From: Rudaea sp. 3F27F6
GTDB lineage: Bacteria; Pseudomonadota; Gammaproteobacteria; Xanthomonadales; Rhodanobacteraceae
DNA: 64,000 nt
NCBI RefSeq assembly: GCF_005503555.1
Contig: NZ_SCNG01000001.1
Coordinates: 1,798,001 to 1,862,000, forward strand
Direction of reading: 5' to 3'
Made by a program: the position numbers and the translations under genes. Below are positions 18,840-20,335 of this stretch, one piece after another. The stretch's first letter is position 1, and every line of letters begins with the position of its first letter. Under the pieces are notes generated by a model that was not told the DNA's origin, searched no databases, and worked only from the letters and a program-made list of their open reading frames with translations.

Positions 18840-18879
18840 TTGCGCGATTCATCGCGCCCCGGGGATTTTTTGCTTCTTC

Positions 18880-19006
18880 GCTCATCATTCCTGCGGCTCT
18901 CAACAGCCGAAGGGCTGGTCAAGCAGGAATCTAGCTCTTGCTTATGCTCGTCATTCCCGCGTGCTTCTTGCGGGGCTCTTAACAGCCGCAGGGCTGGTCA
19001 TCCAGT
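18880..19006. repeat. Outer repeat units, left side of the hairpin-array element
   Basis: Two tandem-like units each contain a CATTCC(T/C)G(C/..) start, then CAACAGCCG or TAACAGCCG, then AGGGCTGGTC (18901-18920 and 18981-19000). An inverted version (GACCAGCCCTGC) lies at 19719-19731. The GTCATTCCCGC..GGAATGAC motif is that of the common REP-like intergenic repeats of this group. No gene is visible. Confidence 0.6.
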
Positions 19007-19040
19007 GACGTTGCTTTTGTTCTTTTGTGTTTTAGAAGCA

Positions 19041-19573
19041 AGAGCTTCCACTCGCCCTACGGGCGAGCGGGTTACTTTCTTGTCTACAGCGACAAGAAAG
19101 TAACCAAAGAAACGCCGCCCCGGGAGCCGCGCCGCCTACGGCGGTTCGCGAGGTCATGCCGGGGTTCGCTCGATGGACATCCGTGTCCATTCGCGAACTC
19201 GCGCGCATCCTGCGCGCGACCCTACGGGCGATTCCGTCATGCCCTCGCCGCGGCTGACGGGGACCCGAGATCAAAAGCCGCAGCCTACGAAGGTGGCCGT
19301 TGCTTTGGCGCGCACGATGCGCGCTGCCTTGCTTCTCCGGGTCCCCATTACATTGCGGCGGCAGCGGTCGATCAGGCCCGCAGGGGGCGCGCGAGGATCG
19401 CGCGCATTCCGCTATTGCACACGGATGTGCAATTAGCGGAACCCGACCGCTGACGCGGACCCTATGGGCAGGATGCCCATAGGGCGCAATGTTCTGGGGC
19501 GGCGTCTTTTGGTTACTTTTCTTCGCTGCTGAAGAAAAGTAACCCGCTCGTCCGTAGGACGAGTGGAAGCTCT
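19041..19573. repeat. 533-bp inverted-repeat element made of hairpins
   Basis: The terminal arms 19041-19118 and 19496-19573 are imperfect inverted copies of about 78 bases. Each contains two nested hairpins, ACTCGCCCTACGGGCGAG and the GGTTACTTTCTTG../..CAAGAAAGTAACC stem. The interior holds five further hairpins of different stem sequence but near-identical loops: 19173-19190 (loop TCCG), 19201-19217 (TCC), 19387-19405 (GGA), 19414-19433 (CGGA) and 19461-19483 (GGA). There is no transposase or convincing coding sequence. Open frames across it resemble the spurious peptides often annotated in such Xanthomonadaceae repeats. Confidence 0.8.
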
Positions 19574-19614
19574 GCTCTTAAACAAACCAAAACAGAGCAG
19601 AGCTAGAGGAGAGC

Positions 19615-19775
19615 AAGAGCTGGATTCTGGCTTCCGCCGGAATGACAATGCGGAAGAAGCAAAGTCGCTGGATTCCCGCCAAGAGCACGCGGGAATGACG
19701 AGCAAAGGCGAGAGCTGGATGACCAGCCCTGCAACTGTTGAAAGCCCCACTTCCGCGAGAATGACGAGCAGAACA
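19615..19775. repeat. Outer repeat units, right side of the hairpin-array element
   Basis: Three REP-like units with the pattern CTGGATTC..GGAATGAC (19619-19645, 19667-19699) and CTTCCGCGAGAATGACGAG (19750-19768). Their complements are the units on the left side, so the whole 0.9-kb complex is a nested inverted repeat. No gene is visible between 18840 and 19789. Confidence 0.6.
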
Positions 19776-19789
19776 ACCGCCCGCAGGTT

Positions 19790-20335
19790 TTACCAGCCGA
19801 AGACCTTGTACTGCACCGCCCCCGGCTTGCCATGCATACCGGCATTCAGATCCGGCGGCATCGGCCCCTGATATGCAGGATCGACGTACCACTTCTCCGA
19901 TCCGCCATCCTTCGACTTGATGTACTGGGCGAAGATCTTGCCGCGCTTGCGGTATTCGGTGATCGTCTCGTTGCCTTCCTGGCGCACGGTCACGACAGGC
20001 AACTCGGTCGCCTCGGCGGCCTTCTGTACTTCAGGCGGCAGGCCGGGGCTGTCGAACTTCTTTTCCGGTTCGGGCGGTACGGTATTCAGCGGCTGCGCAG
20101 CGCGGCGACGCGCGGCGTCTGCGTCAGCCTTCGCGTCGGCATCGGAGTTCGCGATCGGAACGGTTTTGGCACTGCTCGCCGCAGGCTTCGCCGACGTGGC
20201 AGGAGCGGCGGGTTCGTCCATCGGCGGCGGCGGCTGCACGGGCGGCAGACCGTCGTCGGTTTTCTTCTGACCTTGAGCGTGGACCTGCGCTGCGACCAGT
20301 CCGCAGACGAGCATGACAGAAGCGATCTTGCGCAT
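19790..20335 (-). CDS. DUF2782 protein, exported
   Basis: A 181-residue protein with a signal peptide (MRKIASVMLVCGLVAAQVHA) and a Pro/Ala-rich low-complexity region to about residue 95. The conserved C-terminal DUF2782 domain has VVTVRQEGNETITEYRKRGK and KWYVDPAYQGP. The family is regularly found next to polA in gammaproteobacteria; its function is unknown. It is divergent from polA, with 146 bases between the two start codons. Confidence 0.88.
   Translation of the reverse strand: MRKIASVMLVCGLVAAQVHAQGQKKTDDGLPPVQPPPPMDEPAAPATSAKPAASSAKTVPIANSDADAKADADAARRRAAQPLNTVPPEPEKKFDSPGLPPEVQKAAEATELPVVTVRQEGNETITEYRKRGKIFAQYIKSKDGGSEKWYVDPAYQGPMPPDLNAGMHGKPGAVQYKVFGW

Follow-up and report, generated by a model that had tools for sequence, protein, structure and literature searches.

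A dispersed inverted hairpin repeat of Xanthomonadales and other Gammaproteobacteria with putative CsrA/RsmA sites in its conserved loops

What could keep the loops of a hairpin array constant whilst the stems beneath them change? The question is raised by a 533-bp palindromic element at positions 19041-19573 of the stretch of Rudaea sp. 3F27F6 DNA analyzed here (64,000 nucleotides, hereafter the window), where an earlier note described five interior hairpins with unrelated stems and with loops TCC(G) in the left half and (C)GGA in the right half, always closed by an A-T pair, and inferred selection on structure, be it that of an RNA or that of cruciform sites for a protein. The answer we favor, and consider probable though by no means settled, is that the element is one of many dispersed RNA hairpin arrays that bind CsrA/RsmA, often at the 3′ ends of mRNAs; transcription, binding of CsrA and any effect on its regulon are inferred, there being no transcript or binding data.

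The five interior hairpins can be read directly from the sequence, with apical stems at 19174-19189 (loop TCCG) and 19200-19218 (loop TCC) in the left half, and at 19387-19405 (GGA), 19415-19432 (CGGA) and 19460-19484 (GGA) in the right half. The inverted ends said to enclose them, with two hairpins each, are present as well and measure 38 nt (19041-19078 and 19536-19573, 95% complementary). Two extra interior hairpins, absent from the earlier note, lie at 19308-19324 (loop CGA) and 19132-19144 (loop TAC). The whole consists of two related units of about 240 bp, A and B, inverted with respect to each other, with the following parts:

19042..19275, - strand: half-unit of type A, from the centre outwards (GGA strand); 37 copies in its own genome
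19051..19067, - strand: outer terminal hairpin T2 of unit A; belongs to model R1 (see below)
19070..19105, - strand: long terminal hairpin T1 of unit A, GGTTACTTTC type
19132..19144, - strand: hairpin H3 of unit A; several stem versions among copies, without a GGA loop here
19164..19198, - strand: hairpin H2 of unit A; positions 19177-19186 (- strand) are its loop block, ACACGGATGT, which fits the CsrA consensus
19200..19218, - strand: hairpin H1 of unit A; its loop, GGA when read on this strand, is CGA in many relatives
19276..19330, no strand: variable centre between units A and B, containing the CGA-loop hairpin 19308-19324
19331..19572, + strand: half-unit of type B, from the centre outwards (GGA strand); 34 copies in its own genome
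19387..19405, + strand: hairpin H1 of unit B; loop GGA
19407..19441, + strand: hairpin H2 of unit B; positions 19419-19428 are its loop block, ACACGGATGT, which fits the CsrA consensus
19460..19484, + strand: hairpin H3 of unit B; its CAGGATG loop is the repeat described for CsrB
19511..19544, + strand: long terminal hairpin T1 of unit B
19547..19563, + strand: outer terminal hairpin T2 of unit B

The folding energy of the element lies far under that of its shuffles, both as DNA (z -21.6) and as RNA (z -17.4 and -16.9), with no shuffle out of 100 reaching as low an energy in any of the folding tests. An open frame running across it (19025-19453, KKVTKE...) looks like a spurious protein from the repeat. 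By eye, the flanks 18940-19010 and 19660-19770 contain more inverted hairpins, of the type CGTCATTCCCGC...GCGGGAAT, resembling CGTC-tagged REPs, and similar ones lie beside many other copies. Elsewhere in the window, 23519-23634 matches the Xanthomonadaceae sRNA sX13 of Rfam, just 3′ of a 959-codon ORF that is polA-like by eye.

The palindrome recurs in its own genome, which has about 40 copies of the repeat; BLAST with the element returns 28 near full-length copies and further halves there. The 71 units found there (37 A and 34 B) form 31 pairs, each of one A and one B, and nine singles (six A and three B). Among relatives, 30 of the 60 sampled match at E≤0.001, some over the terminal part only, and genome G013 has B-B pairs. 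BLAST with the element gives one partial plasmid match and no phage matches, and BLAST with a unit of a relative gives partial matches in eight plasmid records. At one locus (L037:2908-4040) the A and B units flank a 236-codon ORF, Coq7-like by eye (without a family search), whose listed start falls inside unit A, so that the real start may be later; at another (L144, genome G049) the centre, at about 2280-2380, holds a (CAAAGC)n tandem run between the inverted pair.

High copy number, inverted pairs and the exchange of whole hairpins among copies are what a non-autonomous mobile DNA repeat of the REP/BIME or MITE kind would display. On that account hairpins in single-stranded DNA, with their GGA loops, would be recognized by a transposase acting in trans, and any placement at gene ends would merely reflect tolerated insertions; terminal inverted ends are a MITE-like trait, and the REP-like hairpins adjoining in the flanks (by eye) speak for the same account. 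Several sites are, however, common to two to five species, so those copies must be old, and the only Y1 transposase match in the own genome has no A or B unit within its 1.5-kb flanks. Moreover, genome G013 (78% complete) has 12 B units and no Y1 match, Y1 being the only family searched. A RAYT-driven REP was rejected as the main reading because of that lone Y1 gene without units beside it and of the lack of Y1 in G013, and mobility in general, to which the positions of the units and the composition of their loops are also relevant, remains in our opinion unlikely as the explanation.

Changes in the stems proved to be compensated. The H1-H2 region was aligned in 62 A-type and 55 B-type distinct stretches (alignments A2 and A3), these being all that differed in that region among 85 A and 75 B units spanning at least 195 profile positions. 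Standard pairs occupy 91.6% of cells in A and 94.9% in B, changes on both sides occur at 16 of the 22 pairs in each alignment, and the cells changed on both sides (109 in A2 and 126 in A3) were never as many in 500 shuffles. The signal is lost or far lower when the structure is slid by one to three columns, as a control; still, the aligned sequences are related, so shuffles alone overstate its significance. Whole hairpins are exchanged as modules among copies, with several different complementary stems at one place. Many aligned orthologues keep the GGA loop on altered stems; against our reading, some orthologous copies are without H2 (L107) or are truncated after it (L081).

In principle, complementary stems need no selection, since template switching between hairpin arms (quasi-palindrome correction), together with conversion among copies, could produce them, and the presence of whole hairpin versions common to copies at one place agrees with this. 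Such a process predicts neither loops more conserved than stems nor a strand bias, though, and both are seen, the bias only weakly, which leaves it very improbable.

The loop block of H2, the middle hairpin, is ACANGGANGU, with both N variable. Column by column, the share of the commonest base in A and B is A.93/.98, C 1.0/.98, A.98/.95, N.59/.50, G 1.0/.98, G.97/.98, A 1.0/1.0, N.50/.53, G 1.0/1.0 and T.92/1.0; that is, 0.50-0.59 in the two N columns and 0.92-1.00 in the other eight. The expectation that loops would outlast stems is thus borne out for this block, which is more conserved than most of the H2 stem, but not for H1 of type A, whose loop begins with G in 29 of 62 sequences and with C in the remaining 33, giving a CGA loop that is expected not to bind CsrA and is a counterpoint to our interpretation. 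The loops of H0 and T1 vary in columns where the GGA of H2 stays constant. Across 160 units GGA is the commonest loop triplet (377), followed by GCA (169). Closure by A-T, true of all five interior loops in the window copy, does not extend to the family: in the 117 distinct aligned units the A before the first N of H2 is kept in 113 and its partner T in 60 (AT in 31 units of type A, AT in 27 and GT in 2 of type B), so what is conserved is the ANGGAN loop and not the closing pair. Taken together, covariation and conservation of the H2 loop support the selection on structure inferred in the earlier note. Of its two options we favor RNA over cruciform DNA because of the match of the loop to the CsrA/RsmA site, the excess of G-U over A-C on the GGA strand and a distant copy that matches a known RNA family, all detailed below.

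In the accessible part of the source, the site selected by CsrA in SELEX is RUACARGGAUGU, with ACA and GGA fully conserved, GU present in all ligands except one, and, in most ligands, AC paired with GU to close a loop of six bases; the RsmE loop is given there as ANGGAN, with variable N, and the CsrB repeats as CAGGA(U/A/C)G (PMC7652899). Position by position, the H2 loop block is this published CsrA/RsmA site, a match of letters for which no binding data exist, and, to the extent that the source is available, both H2 and the H3 hairpin of unit B conform to the SELEX consensus, the RsmE loop and the CsrB repeat. Against our reading, unit stems are long and near perfect; most SELEX ligands, in the same portion of that paper, have at most four contiguous pairs (PMC7652899). 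In the own genome, 58 of the 99 SACANGGANGTS sites fall within units, which make up 0.3% of the genome, and these 58 belong to 58 different units and are all on the unit strand, whilst the 41 outside units are about as many as a reversed-pattern control yields (44). The 71 units hold about 174 GGA loops, at least two of them in 67 units, and from one GGA loop to the next the distance is mostly 28 or 48 nt. We consider this evidence for a CsrA site, drawn as it is from sequence, strong. It also weighs against mobility, as the loop consensus is that of a known RNA-protein site. CsrA/RsmA is a global regulator, and the genome has one csrA gene; the standard sponge models find nothing over cut-off in it, CsrB giving no match at E≤1 and RsmZ only 17 bits (cut-off 44), these two being the only sponge models tried genome-wide.

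How far the arrangement extends was followed with a model (R1) of the terminal double hairpin alone, built from 30 copies with the interior hairpins H1-H3 excluded. In this training set the T2 loop has GGA in 8 of 30, but T2 is part of the model match and stays out of the interior test; at the loci of four of the 30 copies (L150, L053, L055 and L052) no GGA interior is seen by eye. At E≤0.001 R1 matches 54 of the 151 genomes in the order, and at E≤1e-6 70 of the 274 in the class. The sites of the interior test are those of the best-scoring genomes and loci among the matches listed, and not a random draw: for the order, 64 matches of at least 40 bits, with opposite-strand echoes excluded, minus two duplicates and three short flanks, gave 59 sites in 27 genomes; for the class, two matches under 31 bits and opposite-strand echoes were left out, and 48 matches entered, 46 of them remaining after removal of short or duplicate flanks.

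On the inner side of the order sites, at least one GGA apical loop is found within 190 nt in 51 of 59 and at least two in 44 of 59; as controls, 3 of 59 have TCC loops there and 5 of 55 outer flanks have GGA loops. The proportion is 45 of 49 in the 23 genomes not inspected before and 6 of 10 in four inspected earlier (G019, G020, G026 and G027). Class sites have at least one interior GGA loop in 24 of 46 (22 of 42 without four records from the plasmid search) and at least two in 19 of 46, with controls of 1 of 46 (TCC loops) and 3 of 45 (outer-flank GGA loops). These interior loops are nearly all A-N-GGA-N or A-GGA, are carried by many different stems and sit on the same strand as the terminal double hairpin.

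Against our reading, the terminal chassis can also exist without a GGA interior, as judged from 22 of the 46 class sites, including Burkholderia and Comamonas copies, from two genomes of the order (G020, none of three sites; G033, none of two) and, by eye, from loci of the G003 type. Eight loci (L152, L054, L053, L050, L052, L055, L150 and L151) have, by eye, the same terminal double hairpins around interiors without GGA hairpins, and at several of these non-GGA loci the terminal hairpins form inverted pairs. A Burkholderia copy of the terminal hairpin (L215:1533-1644) overlaps Bp1_684, a Burkholderia sRNA family of Rfam.

Positions were judged against genes predicted by a home-made gene caller, from which all neighbors are taken. 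Pairs of the own genome lie between convergent genes in 17 of 31 cases and between tandem genes in 14, and never between divergent ones, compared to 7 convergent, 35 tandem and 8 divergent among 50 neighboring predicted gene pairs in the window (Fisher p 0.0001 for the preference for convergent and 0.02 for the avoidance of divergent neighbors); over every genome fetched, convergent neighbors flank 34 of 64 pairs and divergent ones two. Single units have their inner end facing a stop codon in 29 of 37, which makes the GGA strand sense for that gene, and 21 of those 29 are within 64 bp of the stop. This tally leaves out as paired, by a fuzzy partner rule, L031, L036, L108, L135, L143 and L147, and excludes also five contig-edge loci, L149-L153, and L102, L114 and L115, where a strand has two or more units. 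Of the singles between tandem genes, 16 have the GGA strand as sense and 7 as antisense (p=0.09), a result weak alone and from loci that are not independent. Neighbors of singles include a ribosome recycling factor, an AhpC/TSA protein and a MatE transporter.

Empty divergent intergenic regions would also follow from insertion where it is tolerated. The preference for convergent genes and the short distances to stop codons, together with the strong terminal double hairpin and the chassis without GGA interior in some genomes, could also mean a bidirectional 3′-end element, a terminator or exonuclease barrier in which the fold alone matters, with GGA loops that are a mere by-product or that some other RNA-binding protein uses. 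That account, which we take to be quite unlikely, does not explain why the conserved loop block varies at just those two positions at which the CsrA site does, and terminator-like sites are about as frequent in the element as in shuffles (2 versus a mean of 1.2). A point against our preferred reading is that no sigma-70-like promoter was found by consensus in 18840-19790.

A further indication comes from the mismatches. Where a pair is predicted on both strands, the GGA strand has more G-U than A-C, by 113 to 76 pair-by-genome events (p=0.009), a bias that favors RNA and again counts against a mobile DNA repeat. The excess is found in type A alone (p=0.014), is not significant in type B alone (43 to 33, p=0.30) and is reversed in genome G049 (9 to 35 cells). 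A transcription-linked mutation bias could yield the same sign, yet it too requires transcription of that strand.

CsrA/RsmA binding by gene-end RNA, the reading we prefer, could then operate as follows. A half-unit would be an RNA module of the gene end, usually with two or three GGA-loop hairpins followed 3′ by a strong double hairpin, and its GGA strand would become RNA by read-through from the upstream gene or by transcription of the module itself. The GGA loops would bind the CsrA/RsmA dimer, two loops at the usual spacing of 28 or 48 nt acting as a dual site. Loops that keep the sequence preferred by CsrA whilst their stems change suggest that the repeats may make RNA decoys or tags for it: the many loops of a genome could form a spread-out CsrA sponge, the units could mark the 3′ ends of certain mRNAs so that their stability or processing depends on CsrA, or both. 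From an inverted A-B pair between convergent genes, either mRNA would gain one GGA half. More tentatively, and with considerable doubt, one may imagine that a repeat family across Gammaproteobacteria (in the GTDB sense) puts CsrA sites at dozens of gene ends per genome, so that CsrA is buffered by a distributed, mRNA-linked sponge and not by one CsrB-type gene, and that the repeats may persist because CsrA binds them. If they are CsrA sponges, a common class of extragenic palindromes, in Xanthomonadales and beyond, gains a testable function.

The known sponges CsrB/CsrC and RsmX/Y/Z are the products of one or a few dedicated genes. Like them, as far as the available parts of the sources go, the units have several GGA hairpin loops with ACANGGANGU and CAGGAUG sites; unlike them, the repeat consists of 71 short units, which often follow other genes and form inverted pairs. 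A search of the literature, mostly judged from listings, found no description of a dispersed repeat of CsrA sites.

RsmU of Xanthomonas campestris comes closer in origin, being an RNA derived from an mRNA 3′-UTR that has three to four GGA motifs and binds RsmA, but the portion of the source at hand reports it at one locus and in Xanthomonas only (PMC7694677). According to that same portion RsmA still bound RsmU after all four GGA were changed (PMC7694677), so the analogy is partial, and GGA loops alone do not settle binding. REPs and BIMEs of the GTAG and CGTC families are likewise dispersed extragenic palindromes, often in inverted dimers; their units, in the part of the paper available, are of 20-40 bp, against units of 234 and 242 bp as cut, with several hairpins, here (PMC3733652). 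By eye only, no GTAG or CGTC tag was noticed at the unit ends.

Among Rfam families, TwoAYGGAY (RF01731), which shares clan CL00106 with RsmY, is the one met in distant copies: a Pseudoalteromonas copy reaches 51.3 bits (cut-off 43) right before its terminal double hairpin, and an Aeromonas copy 41.5 bits (same cut-off). The window element gives no match to RF01731 at E≤5, short of the 43 bits required, and only one weak match in the clan, to RsmY (13.4 bits, cut-off 57, E=1, not significant). At the gathering level Rfam finds no family in the element or in 20 relatives, and at E≤0.01 none in 20 further loci of order and class, the latter a point against our reading. TwoAYGGAY RNAs and these units are alike in having two or more hairpins with ANGGAN-type loops; H2 satisfies ANGGAN, whereas the first Y of AYGGAY is often not kept, the first N of the loop being G in 34 of 58 A-type units. 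The source, in its available part, proposes that TwoAYGGAY binds CsrA, without validation there, and makes no mention of dispersed inverted pairs or a terminal double hairpin, which are features of our repeat (PMC4333381). The loops are thus like those of TwoAYGGAY and RsmY RNAs, but without a match in the window the element is not filed as a member of RF01731. If our interpretation is correct, TwoAYGGAY, whose role is unproven, would be linked both with the 3′ ends of mRNAs and with a repeat that is dispersed.
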